Source of the DNA: Limosilactobacillus caviae
GTDB taxonomy: Bacteria; Bacillota; Bacilli; Lactobacillales; Lactobacillaceae
Assembly (NCBI RefSeq): GCF_014635905.1
Contig: NZ_BMDS01000002.1
Coordinates: 310,001 to 374,000 of the forward strand
Direction: 5' to 3'
Length of the DNA stretch: 64,000 nucleotides
A model generated the notes under the pieces. That model made no database searches. It was not told where the DNA came from and saw nothing but the letters and a program-made list of their open reading frames with translations. The position numbers and the translations under genes were made by a program. Shown in pieces: positions 16,931-31,174 of the stretch; the stretch's first letter is position 1; each line of letters begins with the position of its first letter.

Positions 16931-18400
16931 ATGACATTACTTGATAGAGATTTCTTACTAACTAACGAATGGGGTAAAAAGTTATTCTTTGACTATGCTA
17001 AAGATATGCCAATCATTGACTTTCACTGTCATTTAAACCCAGAAGAGATTTATGAAAACAAAAATTATGCAAACATTACCAGGGTGTGGATCAATGAAGA
17101 CCACTATGGCGACCATTACAAGTGGCGCTTAATGCGGGCAAATGGCGTGCCAGAAGAACTAATTACTGGAGACGCTGATGATTATGAAAAGTTCTTAGCA
17201 TGGGCAGGGACAATCGAAAAAGCCGTTGGTAATCCGGTTTATGAATGGACTCATCTTGAATTACGGCGTTTCTTCGGGATCGATAAACCTTTGACACGAA
17301 AGAATGCGCCAGAAGTTTGGAAGAAAGCTAATGCCCTCCTTCAAACAGATGACTTCAAGCCACGTAACCTAATTAAGCTTTCCAACGTTAAGGCCGTCTG
17401 CACAACCGATGATCCGGCATCAGACCTTCATTATCATAAACTATTGAAGAAAGATGAACGTGAAAACGGTTTTAGAACATTACCAGCAATGCGGCCTGAC
17501 AATCTAATTCAAATTAATAAACCAACATTTGCCGAATACCTTAAGAAATTAGGTAAAGTTTCCGGTGTTGAAATTAACTCTTTCCGTGATTTAATCAAGG
17601 CAATGGATCAACGTTTCCAATACTTCAATGATATGGGCGGTCGTCTCTCTGATCATTCACTTCTTACTTACCATTATGCTGAAGCTACTGATGATGAACT
17701 TGATGCCATTATGAAGAAGGCGGAAGCAAATGAAGAAGTAACAGGGATTGAATATGATAAATGGCTTACGATGTTCCTTGAAGAAATGATGAAATTAAAT
17801 ACCAAGTACAATTGGACAATGCAATTCCACATTAATTCAATTCGGGACCTTAATCACCCAATGTTTGAACAGCTTGGTCAAGACACTGGTTATGATGCAA
17901 TGGGAACTCAACCCGATATTGTTTCTCATATGCAAAAGCTTTACACTAAGATGCGTGATACAAATGATATCCCAAAGACTATCTTCTACTCATTAAACCC
18001 AAATGACTGGATGCAACTAGTTACACTAATGGGCTGCTTCCTTGAAGGTGGTAAGCAACGGATGCAATTAGGTGCTGCTTGGTGGTTCAATGATACTGCT
18101 GAGGGAATGACTACGCAGTTACGTGATTTTGCTCAACAAAGCCTTTTGCCAAACTTTGTCGGAATGCTAACCGATTCGCGGAGTTTCCTTTCATATCCAC
18201 GTCATGAGTACTTCCGGCGGGTATTATGTAACTTTATTGGTAGCTTGGTTGAACAAGGGCGGGCACCTGAAGATAAAGAATACCTTGGTAAAATTGTCCA
18301 AGATATTGCTTACAACAATGCTTATGAATACTTTGGCTTCTTTAATGATGCTACCCCTGATGAATTATTTACTAAGCATGAAAATCCATTTCAATATTAA
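16931..18400 (+). CDS. uxaC: Glucuronate (uronate) isomerase, copy 1
   Basis: The 489-aa UxaC (typical length ~470) converts D-glucuronate to D-fructuronate and D-galacturonate to D-tagaturonate. The amidohydrolase-fold signature MPIIDFHCHLNPEEIY carries the metal-binding HxH. Other conserved segments are [34 protein letters not shown] and [22 protein letters not shown]. It is co-directional with the symporter. It is very similar to the second copy at 34267 and shares long identical DNA blocks with it (for example 53 bases at 17303-17355). Confidence 0.95.
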   Translation: MTLLDRDFLLTNEWGKKLFFDYAKDMPIIDFHCHLNPEEIYENKNYANITRVWINEDHYGDHYKWRLMRANGVPEELITGDADDYEKFLAWAGTIEKAVGNPVYEWTHLELRRFFGIDKPLTRKNAPEVWKKANALLQTDDFKPRNLIKLSNVKAVCTTDDPASDLHYHKLLKKDERENGFRTLPAMRPDNLIQINKPTFAEYLKKLGKVSGVEINSFRDLIKAMDQRFQYFNDMGGRLSDHSLLTYHYAEATDDELDAIMKKAEANEEVTGIEYDKWLTMFLEEMMKLNTKYNWTMQFHINSIRDLNHPMFEQLGQDTGYDAMGTQPDIVSHMQKLYTKMRDTNDIPKTIFYSLNPNDWMQLVTLMGCFLEGGKQRMQLGAAWWFNDTAEGMTTQLRDFAQQSLLPNFVGMLTDSRSFLSYPRHEYFRRVLCNFIGSLVEQGRAPEDKEYLGKIVQDIAYNNAYEYFGFFNDATPDELFTKHENPFQY

Positions 18401-18469: not shown

Positions 18470-19681
18470 ATGAAATATCCAGGAGAGCCATTAAATATCT
18501 TACACACAATCGGACTAAAAGAGTTATATCCGCTTATCCGAATCAGCTTTTCGGTTGATGAGCGATTTGATGTGGGGCGGTTTAAAAAAGCAATAATACA
18601 ATGCAATGAGGTTGTTCCAGAGCTTTTTTCAAAGTATGTGCTTGAAGATAATTCGTTTATCCCAGTAACCGATGATTTGGAAGGGGTTCTATTTATGGGA
18701 CTTGATCCCGATATTGACAGTGAACGCTGGGATTTGTTTGCGGATCCTCAATTGCGAATTTATTTAAATGAGTCAGAAGATGGGTATGATGTTACTATTT
18801 ACCTTAGTCATATTTTGACCGATGGGGCCGGTGGCAAACAGTTTTTATATTTATTGGCATCGGCATATAATACAGGAAAAATTAACAAGGTGAACCACCA
18901 GGATATTGATTGGTTGCGACAATTACTTAAAGAACATCCGGTTAAGACTAATCGGCAGGCAGATCACCCTGCAAAGCCATTAACAATGCCTGCGCTCGCT
19001 AATGACCAAGGGAAACGGCGGAGAACGCTGACTATTAGATTGAGCAAAGACGAAACAAACCAATTGTGTCAAGCCGCTCATCATAAGCATGTAACCCTAA
19101 ATGACCTCTTTATGGCTGCGTTTGGGCAGGCGGTTCAGCGTTATGCCGACACTGATGAAATAGCTTTAGCATGTCCAACAGATATGCGGCAATTTATTCT
19201 GGGGGCTGAACAGCTACGAATGGCTAATCATACTTCGCGGTATAATATCGCAATCAAATCAGATTTGCGACAGCCATTTGAAACGGTCGTTAATTCAGTC
19301 CATCAAGCAATGGCAACCAACAAGCGGGAATTCCAATGCTTCCAGTCAGTTAAAGAATTAATTGATAAGTATGAGCAGTATCCGCTTGCTGAATTACAGC
19401 AGATTGTGGAGGATAATTACCATGTTCGCAATATTTCATATACAAATTTTGGCATTATTGATCCACAACGCTTTGCTTTTACTGATTGTGCAATTACAGA
19501 TTTTTCAATGCTGGGAACATATCGAAAATACCCGATGTTTCAAGTGGCAATTAGCACTTATTGCGGACAGGTTAACTTATCTTTTGCAATGATCGGTAAT
19601 GATGCGGAAGAACGAATGGGCAGAGCAGTAGTGTTAACCATGTGCGACTTATTGCGTGAATATTTCTTAAGATTTAATTAG
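18470..19681 (+). CDS. CAT/condensation-domain-like acyltransferase of unknown substrate
   Basis: The 403-aa protein has the fold signature of chloramphenicol-acetyltransferase-like and condensation-domain acyltransferases. The catalytic HxxxDG motif is HILTDGAGG (around residue 115), and a second half contains VTLNDLFMAAFGQAVQRYA and LACPTDMRQF. Such enzymes move acyl groups from CoA or carrier proteins to alcohols or amines. No carrier protein or NRPS gene is adjacent. It sits between two terminators inside the uronate island, with a good AAAGGAGG ribosome site, so its link to uronate metabolism is only positional. Confidence 0.75.
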   Translation: MKYPGEPLNILHTIGLKELYPLIRISFSVDERFDVGRFKKAIIQCNEVVPELFSKYVLEDNSFIPVTDDLEGVLFMGLDPDIDSERWDLFADPQLRIYLNESEDGYDVTIYLSHILTDGAGGKQFLYLLASAYNTGKINKVNHQDIDWLRQLLKEHPVKTNRQADHPAKPLTMPALANDQGKRRRTLTIRLSKDETNQLCQAAHHKHVTLNDLFMAAFGQAVQRYADTDEIALACPTDMRQFILGAEQLRMANHTSRYNIAIKSDLRQPFETVVNSVHQAMATNKREFQCFQSVKELIDKYEQYPLAELQQIVEDNYHVRNISYTNFGIIDPQRFAFTDCAITDFSMLGTYRKYPMFQVAISTYCGQVNLSFAMIGNDAEERMGRAVVLTMCDLLREYFLRFN

Positions 19682-19689
19682 TGACTTAA

Positions 19690-19715
19690 AGCGGCTATTT
19701 AGTGGCCGTTTTTTT
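19690..19715 (+). terminator. Intrinsic terminator after the acyltransferase gene
   Basis: GCGGCTA and TGGCCGT form a short stem with one wobble and a small bulge, followed by seven T residues. Confidence 0.6.
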
Positions 19716-19737
19716 ATATTTTCAAGGTTAGTCGATA

Positions 19738-19766
19738 TTGACTAATTAGTTAAAAGCGATTACAAT
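19738..19766 (+). promoter_or_regulatory. Strong promoter with overlapping cre-like site, upstream of the tagaturonate branch
   Basis: TTGACT, a 17-base spacer and TACAAT form a good sigma-A promoter. The cre-like TAAAAGCGATTACA (19751-19764, one mismatch to consensus) overlaps the -10 box. The GntR-type operator starts three bases downstream. The same arrangement occurs before uxuB. Confidence 0.6.
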
Positions 19767-19769
19767 TCT

Positions 19770-19789
19770 AATATACTAATATATCAGTT
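19770..19789 (-). promoter_or_regulatory. GntR-type operator, copy 1
   Basis: Its reverse complement, aactgatatattagtatatt, is identical over 20 bases to 28407-28426 upstream of uxuB. The core is an imperfect palindrome (TGATATA, TTAG, TATATTA). The likely ligand is the GntR regulator encoded at 27617-28300. Confidence 0.65.
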
Positions 19790-19904
19790 ATCAACAAATG
19801 GAAGAAGATGGTACTCTGGTTAGCTGGCAGATTGCTTTTATAAACATTTGTCAGTATGACTGTTAAAAGGTCTTTTCAATTATTCTCCTTGCATCTCAGT
19901 GAAG

Positions 19905-19947
19905 TTGTAGTAAAATACTGTTTGGCTAATCTCTTGTTCACGTGAAC
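19905..19947 (+). promoter_or_regulatory. Promoter and palindromic operator before the small secreted peptide
   Basis: TTGTAG, a 16-base spacer and TAATCT form a plausible promoter. A perfect 12-bp palindrome, GTTCACGTGAAC (19936-19947), lies directly downstream of the -10 box, a typical repressor position. Confidence 0.45.
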
Positions 19948-19982
19948 ATAGAGATTAAAAAGAGTGAGAGGAGAGACTTTTA

Positions 19983-20162
19983 ATGAATCTAATTAAAAGT
20001 ATTATTGTTGTTATCATTGCTAGTATTCTTTTAGCAGGCGGTGTTAGTGCCAGTTCGATTTATACTAGCAAGCAAAATATGAATAGTCATAATCTAAGCT
20101 ACCAGATGACAAATATTGTAACAAAGAATAAGGAAACAGTTGACTATCAAATGAATAAGTAA
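19983..20162 (+). CDS. Small secreted or membrane-anchored peptide, 59 aa
   Basis: The ORF starts at ATG 19983, seven bases after a GAGAGGAGAG ribosome site. Residues 1-24 form a signal peptide or N-terminal anchor: MNLIKS, then IIVVIIASILLAGGVSA, with a possible VSA-S cleavage. The remaining ~35 residues are polar (Asn, Ser, Thr, Lys, Gln-rich) with no cysteine. No known bacteriocin leader or family motif is recognised. A dedicated promoter with palindrome precedes it, and uxaB follows 288 bases later. It may be an exported peptide or a small membrane regulator; function is unknown. Confidence 0.6.
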   Translation: MNLIKSIIVVIIASILLAGGVSASSIYTSKQNMNSHNLSYQMTNIVTKNKETVDYQMNK

Positions 20163-20277: not shown

Positions 20278-20449
20278 ACAAATAGATTGATAGCGCATTC
20301 ATCAACTGCTGTAGTTGCACATATGACTACGTATTCAATATATCGGCTTAATTTGCAAGTTATTGCACATCATCCTCTCACAGATGCGACTAAATTTAGC
20401 AAATCAAACCGGGCGCACAGTAGTTAATTTGGTTTGGAGGTTTTTTAGG

Positions 20450-21871
20450 ATGGAGAGTCTAAATAACAGTTTTCGTAAGTTGCCACAATATCCAAATAAG
20501 GTTATTCAGTTCGGTGAAGGAAATTTCTTACGTGCATTCATTGATTGGCAAATTCAGCAAATGAATAAGCAAGGCCTATTTAAGGGCGGGGTGCAAATTG
20601 TTCAACCATTGCCAACAGGTCGAGTAAAAGATCTCGATGAACAAGATGACTTGTATACAGTATTGCTTGAAGGAATTTTAGATGGCAAGAAAATCCAAAG
20701 TCATGAAATTATTGAATCAGTTAATGGAACTGTTAATCCTTACACTGAATATGATAAGTACATGGCTTTAGCTGAAGATGACAATATTGAGGTTATCTTC
20801 TCTAACACGACTGAAGCAGGAATCGCTTTTGATAAAAATGACACTCTTGAGAAAATTAAAAATGGTGAAAAGAGTTCATATCCTGCTAAGCTAACTGCTT
20901 TACTTTACCATCGATTTGAACTTGGTAAGAAGGGATTCCATATTATCCCGTGTGAATTAATCAATCATAATGGTGATGCATTGAAGAAGACCATTTTACA
21001 ATATGCGGATCTTTGGAATTTAGGACAAGACTTTGTTGACTGGATTAACAAAGATAATAAATTCTATTCCACATTAGTTGACCGGATTGTACCGGGTTAT
21101 CCACGTGATCGAGCAGCAGATCTTGAACAGGAATGGGGCTATAAAGACCAGAACATGGTAAAGACAGAACCATTCTTAATCTTTGTAATTGAAGGCGACA
21201 AGGACATCGAAAAAGTATTACCGCTTAAAGAAGCCGGCATTAACCTCGTCGTAACTGACGATATGCAGCCATACCGTAATCGGAAAGTATCGATTCTTAA
21301 TGGCCCGCATACCACGATGTCGCCAATTGGCCGTTTAGCCGGTCTACAAACAGTTGGCCAGGTAATGGCTGATAAGGACTTTTATAAGTTTATTGATGAT
21401 GAAATGCATAAAGAAATCATTCCTGTTGTGCCGCTACCAAAAGAAGAATTGGAAAGTTACGCTAAGGGAATCCAAGAACGGTTTGAAAACCCATATGTTA
21501 AGCACCAATTAAGCGCTTTGGCCCTCAATAGTATTTCAAAGTACCGTGCGCGGTTATTACCAAATTACAAGCGCTATTATGAAAAATATGGCAAGCTTCC
21601 TAAACGGATGACCGTTGCCCTAGCAGCTTATCTTTGGATCTATAACGGCAAATCTGAATTTGAGATTAATGACACCGCTGATATTGTTGACGGTTTTGCG
21701 AAGATTAAGGGTACAGATGATTACATCCATGCGGCTCTTTCTAATCATGATTTCTGGGGTGAAGATTTAACTAAGATTCCCGGACTCGAGGACTTAGTAA
21801 CCAAGTATTATAACGAAATTGGCAAAAAGGGAACACGTGAGATCGTTCAAGAAATTAACGTGGAGGAGTAA
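20450..21871 (+). CDS. uxaB: Tagaturonate reductase (altronate oxidoreductase)
   Basis: The protein has 473 residues from the ATG at 20450; GGAGG nine to thirteen bases upstream and the family start MESLNNSFRKLPQYPNKVIQ favour it over an in-frame start 87 bases earlier. It belongs to the mannitol dehydrogenase/polyol-specific long-chain family: the Rossmann motif VIQFGEGNFLRAF, then FSNTTEAGI, and the catalytic K-V-S-I-L-N-G-P-H segment. UxaB reduces D-tagaturonate to D-altronate with NADH. It is first gene of the run uxaB-uxaA-epimerase-kdgA-uxaA-kdgK, with only a 5-base gap to uxaA. Confidence 0.93.
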   Translation: MESLNNSFRKLPQYPNKVIQFGEGNFLRAFIDWQIQQMNKQGLFKGGVQIVQPLPTGRVKDLDEQDDLYTVLLEGILDGKKIQSHEIIESVNGTVNPYTEYDKYMALAEDDNIEVIFSNTTEAGIAFDKNDTLEKIKNGEKSSYPAKLTALLYHRFELGKKGFHIIPCELINHNGDALKKTILQYADLWNLGQDFVDWINKDNKFYSTLVDRIVPGYPRDRAADLEQEWGYKDQNMVKTEPFLIFVIEGDKDIEKVLPLKEAGINLVVTDDMQPYRNRKVSILNGPHTTMSPIGRLAGLQTVGQVMADKDFYKFIDDEMHKEIIPVVPLPKEELESYAKGIQERFENPYVKHQLSALALNSISKYRARLLPNYKRYYEKYGKLPKRMTVALAAYLWIYNGKSEFEINDTADIVDGFAKIKGTDDYIHAALSNHDFWGEDLTKIPGLEDLVTKYYNEIGKKGTREIVQEINVEE

Positions 21872-21876
21872 GTTTT

Positions 21877-23361
21877 ATGGAAAAGCTACTTATCTTAAAC
21901 CCTAATGATAACGTGGCCGTTGCGACCGTTGATCTTCCTGCACAAACAACCGTTGAAGTTAATGGCAAAAAGATTGTTATCAGTGATAATATTCCCGTTG
22001 GCAATAAGGTTGCGCTGACCGATTTAAATAGCGGGGCTAATATTATCAAATTCGGACAACCGATTGGGCACTTAACAACAAGTGTGACTGCTGGTGTATT
22101 GATCAATAAACAAAATCTTATAACAAATCAAAATAACAACAAAATTAACACACCAAATATAAAAGTTGATTTTCCTGATATAGGTCAAAAAACTTTTATG
22201 GGTTATCGTCGGCAGAATGGCAAAGTTGGGATCCGCAATGACCTCTATATTGTGCCAACAGTTGGTTGTATTACACCTTTAATGGATGTGATGGTCCAAC
22301 AGTTCAAAGCCAAACATCCTGATAATGGAGCATTCGATAATATCATTTTGCTTAAGCACCCATATGGCTGTTCGCAACTGGGTGATGATTTTGAACAAAC
22401 GCGGCATATTCTTTGTGACGCAGCTTTGCATCCGAATGCTGGTGGTGTATTAGTATTTGGTCTTGGCTGTGAGAACAACCAAATGGACGGAATGAAAGCT
22501 GAAATTGAGCAAATGGCAGGAATTGACAGCCAAAGAATGAAATTTCTTGTTGCCCAGGAAGTAAAAGATGAATTTGCGGACGCTCAGCAGTTACTAGAAG
22601 AGTTAAATGCGGCAGCAGCTGATGATAAGCGAACGCCGGTATCGTTGAGCGAACTGAAAATAGGATTGCAAAGTGTTCGTCCTGATGGGCTAAGTGCGAT
22701 TACCGCTGACCGCTTAATTGCTGATGCGGCTAGTTACATTACTGCTAATGACGGGACGGTTGCATTAACCGGAATCCCTTCGCTATCTGGAGCAGAGCAG
22801 GAAATCATTGCACGTGCATCGAATAAAGAAGTTTCTGAGCATGTGACTTCGATTTTTGATAACATTAAGCATTATTATGCTCATTTTGATGCTCAGATGA
22901 ACAAAGTACCAAGTGACGCAGAAGATAAAATTGGCATTTCAACTGCTGAAGAACGCGCACTTATGACCCTTCGTCTTGCTGGTAATGGTGAAGTGAATGA
23001 TGCTTTACCGTATGGGCATAAATTAACAAGAAATGGGATTAACCTAATTGAAAGTCCGGATAATGACCTTATTGATTCTTCGGCAGAAGCTTCTGCTGAC
23101 TGTCAAATGGTTGTTGTCAGTACAGGTAAAGGGACGCCATATTCTACCTATGTCCCGACAATTAAGGTTTCCTCTAACTCAGCGCTTGCAGAAAAGAAGA
23201 ACCGCTGGATTGATTTTGATGGTGAGAAAGCCGCAAATGATCCAAAGGGGATTGAAAGATTTATTAACTATATTATTGATGTTGCTAATGGTACCAAGAC
23301 AAGTAATGAAAAAGCCGGGCTTCATGGGTTAGCTATTTTCAAGATTGGTGTCACCGAATAA
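21877..23361 (+). CDS. uxaA: Altronate dehydratase homologue 1 (retains middle-domain motifs only)
   Basis: The 494-aa UxaA/GarD-family protein should act on D-altronate to give KDG. The middle domain is canonical: PTVGC (Cys131), HPYGCSQLGDD (161-171), GLGCENNQ (195-202). Elsewhere family motifs are lost. The SAF-domain RGHKxAL is VGNKVAL and HVHxHN is LINKQN; the later CGGSDGxSGxTANP reads SVRPDGLSAITADR (266-279); the STLEDKSLGCTQK segment reads STAEERALMTLRL; APGND is SPDND. The second homologue at 24972 shows exactly the opposite pattern. Its end lies 13 bases before the epimerase start. It may function only as one subunit of a heteromer (inference). Confidence 0.88.
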   Translation: MEKLLILNPNDNVAVATVDLPAQTTVEVNGKKIVISDNIPVGNKVALTDLNSGANIIKFGQPIGHLTTSVTAGVLINKQNLITNQNNNKINTPNIKVDFPDIGQKTFMGYRRQNGKVGIRNDLYIVPTVGCITPLMDVMVQQFKAKHPDNGAFDNIILLKHPYGCSQLGDDFEQTRHILCDAALHPNAGGVLVFGLGCENNQMDGMKAEIEQMAGIDSQRMKFLVAQEVKDEFADAQQLLEELNAAAADDKRTPVSLSELKIGLQSVRPDGLSAITADRLIADAASYITANDGTVALTGIPSLSGAEQEIIARASNKEVSEHVTSIFDNIKHYYAHFDAQMNKVPSDAEDKIGISTAEERALMTLRLAGNGEVNDALPYGHKLTRNGINLIESPDNDLIDSSAEASADCQMVVVSTGKGTPYSTYVPTIKVSSNSALAEKKNRWIDFDGEKAANDPKGIERFINYIIDVANGTKTSNEKAGLHGLAIFKIGVTE

Positions 23362-23374
23362 GCGGGGGATTAAA

Positions 23375-24256
23375 ATGCAAGTTATTGAAAACAAAGAATT
23401 TCGGGCTGAGATTGATGAACATGGCGCGCAATTAACTCACCTCATTAATAAAACAGCTGGTTTCGATTATATCTGGAATGGAAAAGAATGGGGGAAACAT
23501 GCTCCGGTTCTCTTTCCGGCAATCGGACGCTCGAATAAAGACGAATATGTATTAAATGGACATACTTATTCTATGCCGCAACATGGTTTTGTGGCAGATG
23601 AAGACTTTTCAGTTATCTCACATGAGCCTAATATTCTTACTTTAGGTCTTCGTGCGGATGATAAAACTAGAGAAATGTATCCATTTGATTTTGAACTGAA
23701 GATTACGTTTACTCTCCTTAGCACGGGTCTTACGCTTAGCTTCGATGTTAGTAATCATTCAGATGAGGTCATGCCATTTTCACTTGGCTCTCATCCCGCA
23801 TTTAATGTGCCAATTAATGGCATCGGTAAATTTGATAATTACCGGGTAGAATTTATCGGTACAGAAGATCCGTTAAATGTTTATGAAATTGTAAAAACAC
23901 CTGCTCCATATCGGACAGGAAAACAGGAACCGTTAACTAATTCAAATGGTAACCTATTTGAACTTAACTATGAAACGTTTAAACCAGGATTGCGAATCAT
24001 TACTAATTCAGGAGTCAAAAGTGTTCGTCTCTTCTCACCTCTAACTAGTCACCAAATTCAATTAGATGTTGACCAGTTTAACAATATTTGCTTATGGACA
24101 AAAGAAGACGAAGATTGTTCATTCCTATGTATTGAACCATTTAATGGCTTACCTGATGTACTTGGTGCTCCTGTTGATTGGAAGGATAAAGAAGGCAACT
24201 TGTTCTTACAACCAAGTAGTTCACAGGTATATCAATATGAAATTCATTTATCATAA
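23375..24256 (+). CDS. Aldose 1-epimerase family protein (LacX-like)
   Basis: The protein has 293 residues from the ATG at 23375, which follows GCGGGGGAT; an upstream in-frame GTG lies inside uxaA. It has the galactose-mutarotase beta-sandwich with YIWNGKEWGKHAPVLFPAIGR, the catalytic His in SLGSHPAFNVP and the late Glu in CIEPFNGLPD. LacX-type members interconvert anomers of sugars or act on phosphorylated or acidic sugars. In this operon it may epimerise a uronate or keto-uronate (inference). It is within the uxaB-kdgK transcription unit. Confidence 0.85.
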   Translation: MQVIENKEFRAEIDEHGAQLTHLINKTAGFDYIWNGKEWGKHAPVLFPAIGRSNKDEYVLNGHTYSMPQHGFVADEDFSVISHEPNILTLGLRADDKTREMYPFDFELKITFTLLSTGLTLSFDVSNHSDEVMPFSLGSHPAFNVPINGIGKFDNYRVEFIGTEDPLNVYEIVKTPAPYRTGKQEPLTNSNGNLFELNYETFKPGLRIITNSGVKSVRLFSPLTSHQIQLDVDQFNNICLWTKEDEDCSFLCIEPFNGLPDVLGAPVDWKDKEGNLFLQPSSSQVYQYEIHLS

Positions 24257-24274
24257 AAAGGAGATTATTTAATT

Positions 24275-24931
24275 ATGTTACCAAAATTTGAAGCATTAGA
24301 AGCCGTCAAAAATGCTGGTGTTGTAGCGGTTGTTCGTGGTCGTAGCGAAGAAAATTCTTACAAGATTTCAAAAGCAAGTATTGAAGGGGGCATTAAGGCA
24401 ATTGAATTAGCTTTCACCTCGCCAAATGCTGACGTTACAATCAAACGTTTAAGTGAAGAATATGCTGATGATCCATCGGTAGTCGTTGGCGCGGGGACTG
24501 TTCTTGATCCATCAACGGCGCGAATGGCAATGATTGCTGGCGCAAAATTTATTGTTAGTCCTTCTTATAATGAAGAAGTTGCGGAATTATGTAACCTCTA
24601 CTGTGTTCCATATATGCCCGGATGCTTTACACCAAGCGAAGTTCAAAAAGCATTAAGCACCGGTGCTGACGTTATTAAGATCTTTCCTGGTGCAATTGCT
24701 ACTCAAAAGATGATTCCAGAATTGCAAGGACCATTCCCTCAAGCCAATATTATGCCTAGTGGCGGTGTTTCTCTGGACAATATGGCTGAATGGTTCAAGG
24801 CTGGTGCATTTGTTGTTGGTGCTGGTGGTAGTTTAGTTGGTCCTGGTGCCGATGGTGATTACTCTAAAGTAAAGGAAAATGCACAAAAGTTTCATGCAGA
24901 GTTTGAACGGATTCAACAAGAAGCAAAGTAA
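24275..24931 (+). CDS. kdgA: KDPG/KHG aldolase
   Basis: The 218-aa class I aldolase cleaves 2-keto-3-deoxy-6-phosphogluconate to pyruvate and glyceraldehyde 3-phosphate, the last step of the island. Motifs are GVVAVVRGRSEE, the catalytic Glu in AIELAFTSP (Glu44), GAGTVLDP, YMPGCFTPSE and the Schiff-base lysine in ADVIKIFPG (Lys135). An AAAAGGAG ribosome site precedes the ATG, 18 bases after the epimerase stop. Confidence 0.95.
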   Translation: MLPKFEALEAVKNAGVVAVVRGRSEENSYKISKASIEGGIKAIELAFTSPNADVTIKRLSEEYADDPSVVVGAGTVLDPSTARMAMIAGAKFIVSPSYNEEVAELCNLYCVPYMPGCFTPSEVQKALSTGADVIKIFPGAIATQKMIPELQGPFPQANIMPSGGVSLDNMAEWFKAGAFVVGAGGSLVGPGADGDYSKVKENAQKFHAEFERIQQEAK

Positions 24932-24971
24932 CAAATAACCTTTGCTTCAATAAAAAAGGAGCTTGATACTA

Positions 24972-26477
24972 GTGAACAATTTCATTATTCTGAACGATCA
25001 TGACACTGTCGCCGTTGCTCTCCAAGACATCAAAAAAGGATCTGTTCTAAAGACAAAAATGCATGGAGACGTAATCGTTTTAGAAGATATTACTCGTGGT
25101 CATAAGATTGCCCTTGAGAATGTTGCAGAAGGCGAAGACATTATTAAATACGGGTATCCAATTGGTCATGCGACAAAGCCTATTAAGCGTGGCAGTCATG
25201 TTCACGTTCACAATGTTGCAACCAATTTATCCGGCGAATTACAGTATCACTATAATCCAATTGAAATAGAGTCTAAAGTAAAAAAAGATAAGCGGACGTT
25301 TATGGGCTACAAGCGTCCAAATGGTAAGGTTGGCATTCGCAATGATTTATATATTATTCCGGTTGTAGGTTCTGTTAGTGAAACCCTCGATCCGCTAGTC
25401 GAGCAGTTTAAAGCCTTACACCCTGACAACGGTAATTTTGATAATGTAATTCCGTTAAAACACACATACGGTTTTGACACGCCTGAAGATAATTATGAAC
25501 ATGCTCGTAAGATCTTAGTTGATGCTGCCCGTCAACCTAATGCCGGCGCAGTACTTATTTGCGGATTAGATTGTGCCGATGATAGTGAGTTAGAAAAAAT
25601 GAAACAGGCACTAGTTGCAGCAGGCGGGCCGATTAATACCCAACGAATCAAGTTCCTTTCATCTGCTGATAGCGACGATGAACTTGCTGATGGATTAGCG
25701 ATGCTGGAAGAATTAAATAACGCGGTAGCAGACGATCAGCGAACACCGCAACCGCTTAGCGAATTAAAAATTGGCTTAAAGTGTGGCGGTTCAGACGGGT
25801 TATCTGGCGTTACTGCTAATCCATTGCTAGGACGACTCTCTGATTTTGTTGATGCTCAGGGAGGAACGACCGTTTTATCAGAAGTACCAGAAATGTTTGG
25901 TGCAGAACAGATTTTAATGTCACGAGCACAGGATAAAGAGACATTTGACAAGATTGTGAACCTGATTAATAACTTCAAGGCTTACTTTGAGAGTTTTCAC
26001 CAGCCAATCTATGAAAATCCTTCACCAGGTAATAAAGCTGGTGGAATTTCTACACTTGAAGATAAGTCATTGGGATGTACGCAAAAATCAGGATCATCAG
26101 CAGTTAATGATGTCCTGCAATATGGTGATAAGTTGAAGACAAAAGGATTAAACCTATTGCAGGCACCCGGCAACGACCTCGTTTCTTCTTCAGCCGAGGC
26201 ATCGGCAGACTGTCAAATGGTTCTATTTACAACTGGCCGGGGAACGCCATTTGCTACTTATGTTCCAACAGTAAAAGTATCTTCTAATTCTTATATTGCT
26301 AACTTAAAACCACGGTGGATTGATTTTGACGCAGGACGATTAATGAATGAATCAATGGATGATTTAGCGGATGAATTTATCCAATTTATCATTGATGTCG
26401 CAAGTGGTAAAAAAACTAATAATGAAAAATATAATGTTCACGGTATCGCAATTTTCAAGACTGGTGTTACTGAATAG
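24972..26477 (+). CDS. uxaA: Altronate dehydratase homologue 2 (retains SAF and C-terminal motifs only)
   Basis: The protein has 501 residues from GTG at 24972, chosen because the AAAGGAGC site spaces well and the start aligns with homologue 1; a TTG at 24963 is too close. The SAF region is canonical (TRGHKIAL 41-48, SHVHVHN 75-81), as are KCGGSDGLSGVTANP (270-284), GGISTLEDKSLGCTQK and QAPGNDL. The middle domain is degenerate: VGC is VGS, HPYGCSQLGDD is HTYGFDTPEDN, and GLGCENN is GLDCADD. It is complementary to homologue 1, so the pair could form one working heteromeric dehydratase. It sits between kdgA and kdgK, 18 bases before kdgK. Confidence 0.88.
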   Translation: MNNFIILNDHDTVAVALQDIKKGSVLKTKMHGDVIVLEDITRGHKIALENVAEGEDIIKYGYPIGHATKPIKRGSHVHVHNVATNLSGELQYHYNPIEIESKVKKDKRTFMGYKRPNGKVGIRNDLYIIPVVGSVSETLDPLVEQFKALHPDNGNFDNVIPLKHTYGFDTPEDNYEHARKILVDAARQPNAGAVLICGLDCADDSELEKMKQALVAAGGPINTQRIKFLSSADSDDELADGLAMLEELNNAVADDQRTPQPLSELKIGLKCGGSDGLSGVTANPLLGRLSDFVDAQGGTTVLSEVPEMFGAEQILMSRAQDKETFDKIVNLINNFKAYFESFHQPIYENPSPGNKAGGISTLEDKSLGCTQKSGSSAVNDVLQYGDKLKTKGLNLLQAPGNDLVSSSAEASADCQMVLFTTGRGTPFATYVPTVKVSSNSYIANLKPRWIDFDAGRLMNESMDDLADEFIQFIIDVASGKKTNNEKYNVHGIAIFKTGVTE

Positions 26478-26495: not shown

Positions 26496-27521
26496 ATGAG
26501 TAAAATTGTAACTTTTGGCGAAATGATGATGCGTCTCAAACCAACTGATAAGAAACGGATGCTGCAAGCAGATAGGTTCGATGCAAATTATGGTGGTTCG
26601 GAAGCCAACGTTGCGGTTTCATTAAGCCTATTTGGTGACCAGGCAGCCTTTGTATCAAAGTTCCCTGAAAATGTGTTAGGGAAAGCTGCCACTGATAAAT
26701 TACGTGAATATGGTGTGGACACCTCATTACTGCAATATGGTGGCCCGCGTCTTGGAATTTACTTTTTTGAAAAAGGGGCTAGTGTGCGTTCAACCAAGGT
26801 CACCTATGATCGTGCGGGTAGTTCTTTTGCAACGTCAAAGGCTGACGAATATGATTGGGCGACATTGCTAAAGGGCGCGGATTACTTTTACTTCAGTGGA
26901 ATCACAGCAGCCCTCTCCAATGAAATGCGTAAAACAATTTTAACGGCTTGCGAGTATTGCAAAGAACATGGAATTAAAGTAGCCTGTGATTTAAACTTCA
27001 GGGGTAAGCTTTGGACCCCAGCAGAAGCACAAGCATATATGCAAAAAATAATGCCATATCTTACTGTTTGCTTAGTAAATGACGAAGATTTTGAACAAAG
27101 TCTCGGCATTTATGCTTTTGATGGCGACATGGCTCGTGGAATTGATCAAAAAGACACCTTTATTCATGGAATGAAAGAAATTGTTAAGCAATATCCTAAT
27201 GTGAAGGTTGTTGCAAGTGTATTAAGAAACATTCAATCTGTCGATAAGTCGACGTGGATGGCTTTGATGTTAAAAGATGGAAAGGTTTATGAAAGTCCAG
27301 CGTATAAGATTGATGTTCTTGAAGGTGTTGCTGGTGGTGATGCCTTTGGTGCAGGATTAATGCACGGAATTTTGAATGGTCATGATCCGCAAGAGACGAT
27401 TGATTATGCAATTGCGGCGAGTGTGCTTAAGCTAACCGTTCTTGGCGACTTGAATATCTCAACTAAAGAGGATGTTGAAGCAGTTATGCAAGGTGGCGCC
27501 GGTACAAGGGTTGCAAGGTAA
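26496..27521 (+). CDS. kdgK: 2-keto-3-deoxygluconate kinase
   Basis: The 341-aa PfkB/ribokinase-family protein has the N-terminal GG-type motif ANYGGSEANVAVSLSLFG and the C-terminal ATP/anion-hole motif GVAGGDAFGAGL with catalytic Asp. KdgK phosphorylates KDG to KDPG, feeding the kdgA aldolase of the same operon. The ATG has an AAAAGGGGTG ribosome site. The operon ends here with a strong terminator. Confidence 0.93.
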   Translation: MSKIVTFGEMMMRLKPTDKKRMLQADRFDANYGGSEANVAVSLSLFGDQAAFVSKFPENVLGKAATDKLREYGVDTSLLQYGGPRLGIYFFEKGASVRSTKVTYDRAGSSFATSKADEYDWATLLKGADYFYFSGITAALSNEMRKTILTACEYCKEHGIKVACDLNFRGKLWTPAEAQAYMQKIMPYLTVCLVNDEDFEQSLGIYAFDGDMARGIDQKDTFIHGMKEIVKQYPNVKVVASVLRNIQSVDKSTWMALMLKDGKVYESPAYKIDVLEGVAGGDAFGAGLMHGILNGHDPQETIDYAIAASVLKLTVLGDLNISTKEDVEAVMQGGAGTRVAR

Positions 27522-27616: not shown

Positions 27617-28300
27617 TTAATCAATATTATCAAAATAATCTGGGAAAGACTTAATAAGCGACTCTTCTTCATCAAGCATTCGGTGCATGTGATTAGCTGT
27701 CAAACGATCCGCCTCGTTAACATCGTTTGTCTTAATAGCTTTATAAATTGCGATATGTTCCTCAATCAATCCTTGCCACGAAAGTTTTTGCACTTTTAAC
27801 CGTAAGAACCGGAAACGATTAAACTGAATATTAATCTTTTTTAGCCAATCCCATACGCGTTGGTGATCGGTAAGCTTATAAAAGTACTCATGAAAGACAT
27901 CGTCACTGTCTAAGAAGGCAGGGAAGTCATCACTTTCACGAGTTCTTTTTTCATTTTCAATGATTCGGTCGAGATAAGCTATTTGTTCTTCATTAAGTTT
28001 CAGCGTTGCAGCTTCTCGCATAATTCGCCGCTCGACACTAGCACGGACAAAACGGGCATCTAAAACGTCTTTTAAATCAATCTTTGCAATATAAGTGCCT
28101 GATTGTGGGATTACATTGATAAGCTGCTCTTGACGTAATTGAAGTAACGCTTCTCTAACGGGAGTCCGGCCAATCTGAAGGTCTTCTTCGATTTTCTTTT
28201 CTGATATCTTCTGACCAGGTTCATATTCGGCATCGATAATCTTTTTTAAGATGATGTCATAAGCCTGTCCAGTTAAGTTATTTCGTGAGTAATTAGGCAT
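27617..28300 (-). CDS. GntR family regulator with FCD domain (UxuR/ExuR-like)
   Basis: The protein has 227 residues from the ATG at 28300, chosen for its AAAGGA site and for MPNYSRNNLTGQAYDIILKK starting the winged helix; the longer reading adds 26 unrelated residues. The HTH segment is ISEKKIEEDLQIGRTPVREALLQL. The C-terminal all-helical FCD domain binds organic-acid effectors, with metal-site residues such as the His in VFHEYF and late EEHIAIYKAI. It is divergent from uxuB, so it probably controls the uronate operons. The repeated 20-bp operators at 28407 and 19770 are its likely targets. Confidence 0.9.
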   Translation of the reverse strand: MPNYSRNNLTGQAYDIILKKIIDAEYEPGQKISEKKIEEDLQIGRTPVREALLQLRQEQLINVIPQSGTYIAKIDLKDVLDARFVRASVERRIMREAATLKLNEEQIAYLDRIIENEKRTRESDDFPAFLDSDDVFHEYFYKLTDHQRVWDWLKKINIQFNRFRFLRLKVQKLSWQGLIEEHIAIYKAIKTNDVNEADRLTANHMHRMLDEEESLIKSFPDYFDNID

Positions 28301-28371
28301 TCCTACAACGTCCTTTCTAGTGTTTTTATTATAACGTTTCTTGTGATAAAAAAGCAATTTCTGTAAAGATA

Positions 28372-28400
28372 TTGACAAAACTACTGAAAACGTTTACTAT
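28372..28400 (+). promoter_or_regulatory. Promoter of the uxuB operon with overlapping cre site
   Basis: TTGACA, 17 bases, TACTAT is a near-consensus promoter. TGAAAACGTTTACT (28385-28398) overlaps the -10 box and differs from the consensus TGWAANCGNTNWCA only at its last base. CcpA repression in rich sugar is expected. Confidence 0.75.
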
Positions 28401-28448: not shown

Positions 28449-30080
28449 ATGGTGAAATTAACTGACGACTATCTTAACAATCCAACACCATTTGAAGAAG
28501 CTGGAGTGCGGGTTCCTAAGTATGCGCAAGATAAATTAATTGAACATACTAACGAGAATCCGGTATGGGTTCATTTTGGTGGCGGTAATCTCTTTAGATG
28601 TTTTCATTCTGTCATTGCTCAGGATTTAATTAATAAGGGCGAATTAGATAGTGGAATTATTGTTGCTGACACCTATGATGATGAAGTAATTAATGAAGTC
28701 TACAAGCCTTATAATAATCGCTTCTTATCAGTTGTGATGAAAAATGATGGCCTGGATAAGGAGTTAGTAGCGAGCGTAACTGACAGTATTTATGCCAATA
28801 GTAAAAATAAAGCAGGACTTGAAAAACTAAAAGATATTTTTAAGAAACCAACACTGCAATTAGCGACATTTTCAATAACGGAAAAAGGGTATGCCTTAAA
28901 AGATATGAACGGCAACTTGACTAAGGGAGCTGAACATGACCTTAGTAATGACCCGGATTCTGCGGTTACTAATATGGGAATAATTGCCAATCTATTACTA
29001 TCACGGTATAAGGCAGGAAAATTACCAATTGCCATGGTCAGTACCGATAATTTCTCACAAAATGGGAAACGGTTGGAAGAAGCAGTCCAACTTATCGCTA
29101 ATGGTTGGGTGAAAAATGGTTTCGCCGACCAAGGATTCCTTGAGTACCTCGATGATCCTAAGCAAGTATCATTTCCGTGGAGTATGATTGACCGAATTAC
29201 ACCAAATCCGTCCGAAAAAGTATCGAAAGAGTTAGTTGAAGATGGGATTAAAGACGCGGCAATCGTTCATACCGATAAGCATACAAATATTGCACCGTTT
29301 GGTAATACCGAAGAAACTCATTATCTCGTAATTGAAGACAGTTTTCCAAACGGACGGCCAAAGCTTGAAGATGCCGGTGTATTTATGACCGACCGCGAAA
29401 CTGTTAATGATGCTGACCAGATGAAAGTTACTGCTTGTCTTAATCCTCTCCACACATCACTAGCAATTTTTGGCTGTCTGCTGGACTTTCATTCAATTGC
29501 TGATGAAGCAGTGGACGATGACCTCCTAAAGATGATTAAGAATCTCGGTTACGGTGAAGATTTACCAGTCGTAAAGGACCCGAAGATTATTAATCCCAAA
29601 GAATTTATTAGTACTTTAATTACTAAGCGGTTACCGAATAAAAATATTCCTGATACACCACAGCGGATCGCGTCAGATACGTCGCAAAAAGTTGGTATTC
29701 GTTATGGAGTAACCCTTCAGCACTATGTTGATAATCCTAAACTTGATCCGGCAGACCTTGAATTTATCCCAATGATCATTGCTGGCTGGTGCCGTTACTT
29801 AATGGCAGTTGATGATAATGGAAATGCCTTTACTCCAAGTCCAGATCCGTTATATGACCAGTTACATGAGTACGTTAAGGATATTAAGATCGGTGGTTCA
29901 GAAAGCAATATCCATGAAAAATTACAGCCAATTTTAAGTAACAAGTCAATTTTTGGTAATGATCTTTATGAAATCGGTCTAGGAAATAAGATCGAGGATT
30001 ACTTCAAACAGATGATTACAAAGCCAGGAGCAGTTCGGGCGACAATTCATCAAACTGTTGAAGAAAAAGGAAAATATTAG
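28449..30080 (+). CDS. uxuB: Fructuronate reductase (D-mannonate oxidoreductase)
   Basis: The 543-aa mannitol dehydrogenase-family protein has the Rossmann start WVHFGGGNLFRCFHSV, the DNFSQNGKRLEEAV substrate segment and KVTACLNPLHTSLAIFG carrying the catalytic Lys-Asn-His set. UxuB reduces D-fructuronate to D-mannonate. It is first gene of the uxuB-uxuA-gntP unit, with an AAAGGAAG ribosome site. Expression is probably controlled by CcpA and by the divergent GntR protein. Confidence 0.92.
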   Translation: MVKLTDDYLNNPTPFEEAGVRVPKYAQDKLIEHTNENPVWVHFGGGNLFRCFHSVIAQDLINKGELDSGIIVADTYDDEVINEVYKPYNNRFLSVVMKNDGLDKELVASVTDSIYANSKNKAGLEKLKDIFKKPTLQLATFSITEKGYALKDMNGNLTKGAEHDLSNDPDSAVTNMGIIANLLLSRYKAGKLPIAMVSTDNFSQNGKRLEEAVQLIANGWVKNGFADQGFLEYLDDPKQVSFPWSMIDRITPNPSEKVSKELVEDGIKDAAIVHTDKHTNIAPFGNTEETHYLVIEDSFPNGRPKLEDAGVFMTDRETVNDADQMKVTACLNPLHTSLAIFGCLLDFHSIADEAVDDDLLKMIKNLGYGEDLPVVKDPKIINPKEFISTLITKRLPNKNIPDTPQRIASDTSQKVGIRYGVTLQHYVDNPKLDPADLEFIPMIIAGWCRYLMAVDDNGNAFTPSPDPLYDQLHEYVKDIKIGGSESNIHEKLQPILSNKSIFGNDLYEIGLGNKIEDYFKQMITKPGAVRATIHQTVEEKGKY

Positions 30081-30100: not shown

Positions 30101-31174
30101 ATGAAAAATATGGGATTTCGCTGGTATGGCGATGGCAATGATTCAATTAAATTGTCAGATATTCGTCAAATTCCAGGAACAACACAAGTAGTAGGAGCGT
30201 TGTTCGATATTCCGGTTGGCGAAGTTTGGCCAAAGGAACGAATAGCAGCACTAAAAAAAGAAGTTGAAGATGCTGGATTAAAACTTGAAGTAATTGAATC
30301 GGTTAATATTCATGACGATATAAAGATTGGATTACCAAGTCGTGATAAATATATTGAGAACTATAAAGAAACAATTAAGAATTTGGCAGCCTATGGAATC
30401 AAAGTCATTTGCTATAACTTTATGCCAATTTTTGACTGGGTACGGACTGACCTTCATTATCCGCTTCCTGATGGATCAACGGACATGGCGTTTCAACATA
30501 AATATGTTGAAGGATCACCAGAAGACATTATTAAATCTGTAGAAAAGAATTCTAATGGTTATGTTCTTCCAGGCTGGGAACCAGAACGGCTAGCAGAAGT
30601 CAAACGCTTATTTGAAGCTTATAAGGATGTTGATGAACAGAAGCTGCGTGAAAACCTTAAATACTTCTTAGATGCGATTATTCCAACCTGTGAAAAGTAT
30701 GATGTTCGGATGGCAATGCACCCTGATGATCCGCCAATGCCATTATTTGGCTTACCGCGAATTTATAAAAATCGAGAAGACATGCTAAAAATCGAACAAA
30801 TGCATGAATCAAAATACAATGGTTTTACGATCTGTACAGGAAGTCTTGGCGAAAATCCTAATAATGATGTTCCCGCTATCATTAGAGAATTTGTCAAGAA
30901 AGATCGGGCACCATTTATTCACGCTCGTAATATTAAGTTTATGGGTAATGGTGATTTTCATGAGTCAGCACACTTATCTTCAGAAGGTTCATTAGATATG
31001 TATGAAATCATGAAAGCTTTATATGACACTGGGTTTGATGGTTACATTCGTCCAGACCATGGTCGTGACATTTGGGGCGAAGAAGGTCGTCCAGGATATG
31101 GATTATATGATCGCGCACTTGGAATTACTTATTTGAATGGTCTTTGGGAAGCAATTACAAAGGAAAATAAGTAA
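30101..31174 (+). CDS. uxuA: Mannonate dehydratase
   Basis: The 357-aa TIM-barrel enzyme dehydrates D-mannonate to KDG. Family segments are MGFRWYGDGNDSIKLSDIRQIPG at the start, MAMHPDDPP with metal-binding His/Asp, TGSLGENPNND, IHARNIKFMGNGDFHESAH and IRPDHGRDIWGE. It follows uxuB by 20 bases and precedes the GntP permease by 24. Confidence 0.95.
   Translation: MKNMGFRWYGDGNDSIKLSDIRQIPGTTQVVGALFDIPVGEVWPKERIAALKKEVEDAGLKLEVIESVNIHDDIKIGLPSRDKYIENYKETIKNLAAYGIKVICYNFMPIFDWVRTDLHYPLPDGSTDMAFQHKYVEGSPEDIIKSVEKNSNGYVLPGWEPERLAEVKRLFEAYKDVDEQKLRENLKYFLDAIIPTCEKYDVRMAMHPDDPPMPLFGLPRIYKNREDMLKIEQMHESKYNGFTICTGSLGENPNNDVPAIIREFVKKDRAPFIHARNIKFMGNGDFHESAHLSSEGSLDMYEIMKALYDTGFDGYIRPDHGRDIWGEEGRPGYGLYDRALGITYLNGLWEAITKENK

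Follow-up and report, generated by a model that had tools for sequence, protein, structure and literature searches.

Complementary residue losses suggest that two UxaA paralogues of Limosilactobacillus caviae are subunits of one altronate dehydratase

We examined two UxaA-family genes of Limosilactobacillus caviae (NCBI RefSeq assembly GCF_014635905.1, contig NZ_BMDS01000002.1, forward-strand positions 310,001 to 374,000; this whole stretch of 64,000 nt is called the window, and coordinates are counted from its first letter). They encode homologue A (494 aa; 21877..23361, + strand), which keeps a three-cysteine middle domain and lacks the SAF histidine and many conserved C-terminal residues, and homologue B (504 aa; 24963..26477, + strand), which keeps the SAF and C-terminal motifs and lacks C132, C166, E200 and Q225 (E. 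coli UxaA numbering). On the strength of their sequences, we put a probability of about 0.75 on the reading that A and B form a single altronate dehydratase as its two subunits, with an active site that would join the three-cysteine middle domain of A to the SAF and C-terminal residues of B. Each protein is probably functional only in combination with the other. This reading is favoured because the partition occurs in every orthologue examined, because both genes are under purifying selection and co-occur with the preceding pathway enzyme, and because a separate second case exists; the same four lines of evidence support an earlier, sequence-only reading of this DNA, which had inferred a heteromer from motifs. 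Readable from sequence alone, the pair is a clean example of convergent, complementary loss of active-site residues in two paralogues.

Complementary loss of conserved residues

The two genes are intact paralogues with complete, in-frame open reading frames (ORFs), as the sequence-only reading had stated, and their products are 47% identical over the full length. The nearest named relatives of A are from Limosilactobacillus balticus (82%), Lactobacillus sp. 0.1XD8-4 (81%), L. rudii (75%), L. caccae (64%) and L. kribbianus (61%). All three Pfam domains (PF08666, PF04295 and PF20629) score above their curated cut-offs in both proteins, the SAF match of A being marginal (21.5 bits, cut-off 21). 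The scores of the other two domains are reciprocal: the middle domain PF04295 reaches 140.7 bits in A versus 91.6 in B, and the C-terminal domain PF20629 reaches 166.1 bits in A versus 322.9 in B.

We aligned 9 A and 10 B orthologues with 23 single-copy UxaA proteins from related genera, 12 members that are either GarD-like or distant (14 alignment rows, two of which repeat the E. coli pair), E. coli UxaA and E. coli GarD. Excluded before any count were 9 fragment ORFs shorter than 440 aa, including one type split over two genes (L080) and broken copies from four genomes (G376, G507, G616 and G030), and one truncated ORF (L146). E. coli UxaA and 23/23 single-copy relatives share an identical residue at 170 positions, of which 21 lie in the SAF domain, 40 in the middle domain and 109 in the C-terminal domain. 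A has lost 9, 1 and 48 of these, respectively, and B has lost 0, 11 and 0 (middle versus C-terminal losses, A against B: Fisher P = 3.5e-11). One position, N134, is gone from both. A stricter set of 77 positions further requires agreement with GarD and with 11 or more of the 12 other members; here the losses, in the same order of domains, are 2, 0 and 25 in A and 0, 4 and 0 in B. The four residues missing from B are C132, C166, E200 and Q225, while those missing from A include H42, C264, N276, E297, E300, N342, N347, K358, K365 and R416; comparison with E. coli UxaA and GarD confirms these losses in both proteins.

The middle-kept, C-terminal-lost pattern is present in 9/9 Limosilactobacillus A proteins, and the reverse pattern in 10/10 B orthologues. 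Together with the reciprocal domain scores and the Fisher test, this recurrence bears out the complementary motif loss that had been claimed from the window. The extent of the loss in A had been put too high. The SAF motifs described as lost are indeed affected, with H42 replaced by Asn and Y58 also gone, but the SAF domain itself is still present, at its 21.5 bits, and its fold is predicted to be kept. Likewise, the later motifs are lost at the 48 C-terminal positions counted above, but A still has the other 61 of the 109, for example the D of APGND, T418 and K428.

In the window, the key codons (all + strand) are 22267..22269 for Cys131 of A (C132 of E. coli UxaA; Ser in B), 22369..22371 for Cys165 of A (C166; Phe in B), 22468..22470 for Cys198 of A (C199; also Cys in B), 25101..25103 for the SAF residue His47 of B (H42; Asn in A) and 25782..25784 for Cys274 of B (C264, the fourth conserved Cys; Ser in A).

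A proposed four-cysteine site divided between two proteins

Watanabe and colleagues report that an enzyme of the UxaA/GarD superfamily contains iron, with electron paramagnetic resonance signals that they liken to those of rubredoxin and [3Fe-4S] ferredoxin (PMC6336799). They describe only Cys 134, 173, 208 and 276 as conserved superfamily-wide, SuyAB excepted, and suggest them as ligands of one iron (PMC6336799). We mapped them to C132, C166, C199 and C264 of E. coli UxaA by conservation and spacing, without aligning that protein itself; the spacing is 39/35/68 in the protein of that report versus 34/33/65 in E. coli UxaA.

All four cysteines are present in 95/95 reference relatives outside A/B pairs, which are mostly best-scoring matches among those listed at class and phylum level, so that lone A-like or B-like proteins may exist elsewhere. 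In the window, the four sites read C, C, C, S in A and S, F, C, C in B. If the four cysteines form one site, then with these residues neither A nor B alone can build it, whereas the three of A and C274 of B can.

We defined universal positions as those kept in at least 97% of references, which gave 57 positions with 92 references and 53 (middle plus C-terminal) with 95. The reference set omits the 12 ORFs of six Bacilli pairs described below, which were removed once their pattern was seen, and a SuyB-like protein is also kept apart. A single-chain altronate dehydratase would carry this set in one polypeptide; in the window A has 31/53 and B has 48/53. Across the genus, A by itself covers 31-33 of them and B by itself 48-49, and the two jointly cover 53/53 in 9/9 pairs.

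A mechanism consistent with these counts starts from an ancestral single-gene UxaA that would have been an oligomer, its active site composed of middle, SAF and C-terminal domains. A duplication in or near the Limosilactobacillus lineage may then have allowed each copy to lose the half that its partner could supply. A would contribute the three-cysteine middle domain (C131, C165 and C198) with the matching Gln, and B would contribute His47 of its SAF domain, C274 as the fourth cysteine and the C-terminal residues of the conserved set. Only the A:B site would hold the complete family set, and the second heteromer site, made from the B middle domain and the A C-terminal domain, would be dead. 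We infer the physical complex, the iron at the cysteines and the geometry across subunits, as well as altronate as the substrate, the latter from the operon.

Selection on both genes

The fast evolution of two domains of A could suggest a decaying duplicate on its way to becoming a pseudogene, or an artefact of assembly or frame. The median ratios of nonsynonymous to synonymous substitution rates (dN/dS) in A are 0.242 for the SAF domain, 0.106 for the C-terminal domain and 0.025 for the middle domain, and in B they are 0.050, 0.019 and 0.045, respectively, all of them rough values because of near-saturated synonymous sites and few usable pairs (5 to 19 of 36 for A and 7 to 16 of 45 for B). 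The middle domain of A is therefore under strong purifying selection, and no stop codon occurs in the A matches (9/9 genomes) or the B matches. The mean identity within A is far higher in the middle domain (0.915) than in the C-terminal domain (0.632), and that order is reversed in single-copy genes (0.689 versus 0.766), which span more distant genera; within B, the values are 0.858 and 0.951. These cross-species data largely refute decay or artefact, which we now consider extremely unlikely. Both genes are under purifying selection, and neither seems to be decaying.

Full length and purifying selection are also what two separate homo-oligomeric enzymes with different substrates would display, and 14 C-terminal positions of A have been fixed to a new residue, in line with neofunctionalisation. 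However, these 14 belong to 59 near-invariant C-terminal positions lost from A, and the other 45 are variable, which is more like relaxation than a new active site. A and B each lack residues kept by at least 97% of the 95 references, and we judge two independent enzymes to be improbable, with only a small chance of being correct.

Co-occurrence with the preceding pathway enzyme

Among 50 genomes of the genus, 39 lack any match, 9 carry both A and B, one (G029) carries B alone and one (G030) retains a 67-codon remnant of B. A UxaB with at least 90% identity occurs in 9/50 genomes, which are precisely those with both A and B, and is absent at that level from G029 and G030; the remaining UxaB matches, at 23-27% identity, are distant paralogues. 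The order uxaB-A-galM-kdgA-B is kept in 8/9 genomes, where one contig spans the stretch. The remaining genome, G045, has these genes on two contigs, and one TAA was counted in its matched UxaB frame. In all 8 contig-spanning genomes, an aldose-1-epimerase-like gene sits between A and B.

Across 396 genomes of the family, no A-type was found outside the genus by C-terminal profile score: the matches reach 281 to 329 bits on that profile and are single-copy types, except for a two-piece gene in G376. UxaA-family genes that are in two pieces or broken by stops were observed in other Lactobacillales (L056/L061 in G376, L074/L078 in G507 and L075/L079 in G616).

A second case with a separate origin

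The same complementary split is present in six genomes of a Bacilli family (f14), each with two adjoining UxaA-family ORFs (L109, L111, L113, L114, L119 and L124). Their A-type is shortened, to about 310 aa in L119, and is without 36/44 universal C-terminal positions. In L119, the one locus that was read, an ORF with SAF motifs lies between the two. Haloarchaeal plasmids carry these genes in the order B-SAF-A, mostly overlapping by a few bases, with a small extra annotated ORF before A in L177. A single place covers at least 80% of the Bacilli A-type in 14 plasmid records, of which 12 were examined, and 12/12 contain the triplet; two further triplets came from the B-type match list, giving 14 haloarchaeal pairs and, with the 6 from Bacilli, 20 pairs in all.

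The A-types of this second case keep C132, C166, C199 and Q225 in 20/20 and have lost E297, E300 and K365 in 20/20 and C264 in 19/20. Their B-types have lost C132, C166, C199 and Q225 in 20/20 and keep C264, E297, E300, N347, K358, K365 and R416 in 20/20. Jointly, 12/20 pairs cover 53/53 universal positions. Over all pairs, single members carry 19 to 33 of the 53 (A-types) or 46 to 49 (B-types), and because B-types lose few positions, the non-overlap of the losses is only modestly surprising for any one pair. The weight of the complementarity lies in its domain-wise split and in its recurrence.

Limosilactobacillus A and B nest within the Lactobacillaceae UxaA group (100% in the SH-like approximate likelihood ratio test, SH-aLRT). 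We compared alternative topologies with approximately unbiased (AU) tests on 81 of 155 rows (5/9 A, 6/10 B, 10/14 haloarchaeal pairs and 6/6 Bacilli pairs), with long branches present and with groups that are defined by residues, yet were tested after a first tree had been seen. A common origin of the Limosilactobacillus pair and the second case was rejected for both types: forcing all A-types together gave AU P = 4.6e-7, and forcing all B-types together gave AU P = 4e-52. A single origin of A plus B was neither shown nor rejected (AU P = 0.314). The Bacilli and haloarchaeal A-types group together (97%), whereas their B-types do not; since a joint Bacilli and haloarchaeal B clade was not rejected either (AU P = 0.137), we claim at least two origins and not three. 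By this analysis of sequences, the residue partition arose at least twice.

The haloarchaeal triplets (L164-L167 and L172-L181) are annotated as three 'UxaA family hydrolase' genes and probably encode a three-subunit sugar-acid dehydratase. Depending on the record, genes for FAH hydrolases, DapA-type aldolases, enolase-superfamily proteins and sugar transporters are among those nearby. Downstream of the triplet on two Haladaptatus plasmids lies a gene for an Nramp divalent metal transporter (L174, 5022-6083; L176, 5025-6083), which is in keeping with a metal-dependent enzyme.

Comparison with known enzymes and the case for B alone

E. coli UxaA (b3091) and the single-copy Lactobacillaceae UxaA proteins resemble A and B in sequence and in their three-domain architecture, and part of the single-copy relatives also lies beside uxaB, uxaC and other pathway genes, as in the window. 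Unlike the window proteins, which spread them over two paralogues, they hold the four cysteines and the SAF/C-terminal set in one polypeptide.

The SuyAB sulfolactate lyase is described as a heteromeric member of the superfamily, and an L-fuconate dehydratase of Paraburkholderia mimosarum is called heteromeric from gene context and unpublished data (PMC6336799). SuyAB cleaves sulfolactate (PMC6336799, PMC12421959). It eliminates sulfite and is split into a small SAF-like subunit and the rest, whereas A and B each bear their own SAF domain, unlike a separate SAF subunit beside a large one. The earlier remark that no heteromeric UxaA of this kind had been described needs qualifying at the level of the superfamily, but in our searches of the open-licence literature we found no pair of paralogues that divide the conserved set into complementary halves. 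Two-gene UxaA-family enzymes with a small gene beside a large one (L168-L171 and L185) are multi-gene as A/B are, but their large protein keeps all four cysteines in 5/5. The Bacilli and haloarchaeal B-SAF-A sets share the complementary partition, at largely the same residues, and differ in having the SAF domain as a separate gene, a shorter A in Bacilli and a separate origin; no published description of them was found in the literature searches made.

Several observations weigh against the heteromer. The sequence-only reading held that B had lost the middle-domain motifs, and this stands for C132, C166, E200 and Q225 and fails for the third cysteine, C199, which is kept in 9/10 Limosilactobacillus B orthologues. 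It had also raised the question of whether genomes with one gene always have the other, and 9/50 genomes have both, but G029 has B without A; UxaB is absent there as well. A was found nowhere in the G029 assembly, where the contig breaks off 58 bases upstream of the epimerase gene. The two cases are not identical in every residue, as E200 is kept in second-case B-types and gone from Limosilactobacillus B. The haloarchaeal A-type L175 retains the fourth cysteine, C264, and 8/20 second-case pairs cover 51 or 52 of the 53 universal positions, with one or two in neither protein. Finally, a SuyB-like protein of Haloarcula litorea (L182) resembles the B-types in lacking C132, C166, C199 and Q225, and the annotation of the 7,155 bases viewed at its locus includes no A-type gene; the superfamily can apparently carry out sulfite elimination without the three cysteines. 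The label SuyB-like rests on the gene neighbourhood of L182, which contains a small UxaA-family gene, an Ldh-family dehydrogenase and a sulfate-exporter-like gene, and the protein also differs at G265, N276, D284, N342, D395, F412 and R416. Speculatively, L182 may instead hint that the cysteine site matters for water removal.

L182 also suits a reading in which the dehydratase activity belongs to B alone, with A as an accessory pseudoenzyme that would stabilise or regulate B or load it with iron, as does the complete SAF and C-terminal module of B, with 44/44 universal C-terminal positions in the 57-position set. However, loss of cysteines that are invariant in the references would be unexpected in a lone dehydratase, A is most constrained in its middle domain, and the same partition arose at least twice. 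We therefore regard activity of B alone as unlikely, though as a more serious contender than either decay or neofunctionalisation, and retain the heteromer of A and B.

More generally, UxaA/GarD dehydratases may build their site from two protomers, such that the three-cysteine iron site in the middle domain of one chain lies opposite the SAF and C-terminal residues of a second chain, and the family would hence have split by duplication at least twice into obligate heteromers, with one paralogue as the metal half and the other as the acid-base half. We lean towards this generalisation, with appreciably less confidence than we place in the heteromer itself. The partition makes a poorly understood iron-dependent dehydratase fold testable, because nature has sorted its conserved residues into two separately expressible groups; separate expression should reveal the role of the cysteines and any sharing of the site between subunits. 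A further caution is that two 'altronate dehydratase' annotations can hide one enzyme, and gene counts may mislead predictions of galacturonate use.

Predicted structures

Confident AlphaFold models from a 22-sequence alignment have a predicted local distance difference test score (pLDDT) of 86.4 and a predicted TM-score (pTM) of 0.88 for B, and 87.1 and 0.89 for A. The top structural match of both is E. coli GarD (PDB 6u7l), with TM-scores by target of 0.84 for B (root-mean-square deviation 4.7) and 0.82 for A (5.7). By these predictions, both proteins seem to retain the whole scaffold, including the SAF fold of A. GarD shares the predicted fold but belongs to another subfamily and is encoded by a single gene with all four cysteines. 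Its crystal structure reportedly has the middle domain as dimer interface and the metal in the C-terminal domain, which we did not use as evidence.

The gene cluster

A and B, with the two PF20629 matches, are the only UxaA-family proteins in the genome; this search covered that family of dehydratases. The surrounding cluster looks like an apparently complete isomerase pathway for galacturonate and glucuronate. Upstream on the + strand are uronate isomerase UxaC (16931..18400; PF02614) and a UxaB-type tagaturonate reductase (20363..21871; Mannitol_dh). The aldose 1-epimerase-like gene (23345..24256, +) and a KDPG/KHG aldolase family gene, likely KdgA (24275..24931, +), lie between A and B, and a PfkB-family kinase, likely the 2-keto-3-deoxygluconate (KDG) kinase KdgK (26496..27521, +), lies after B. 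Farther downstream are a GntR/FCD regulator (27617..28378, -), a UxuB-type fructuronate reductase (28449..30080, +; Mannitol_dh) and mannonate dehydratase UxuA, the dehydratase of the glucuronate branch (30101..31174, +; PF03786).

In G029, the cluster is apparently decaying (L092, contig C49), with B, kdgA and the epimerase gene left, and A and uxaB not found. Between uxaC and uxaB, the window encodes a condensation-domain-like protein (18470-19681; PF00668, 42.7 bits) that occupies the same place in four other loci of the genus (L003, L004, L013 and L097) and has a relative elsewhere in the L006 cluster. In L097 (G034), a second uronate isomerase gene begins near the cluster at 18985-19998, with 80% identity over 338 aa, and is cut by the locus end.

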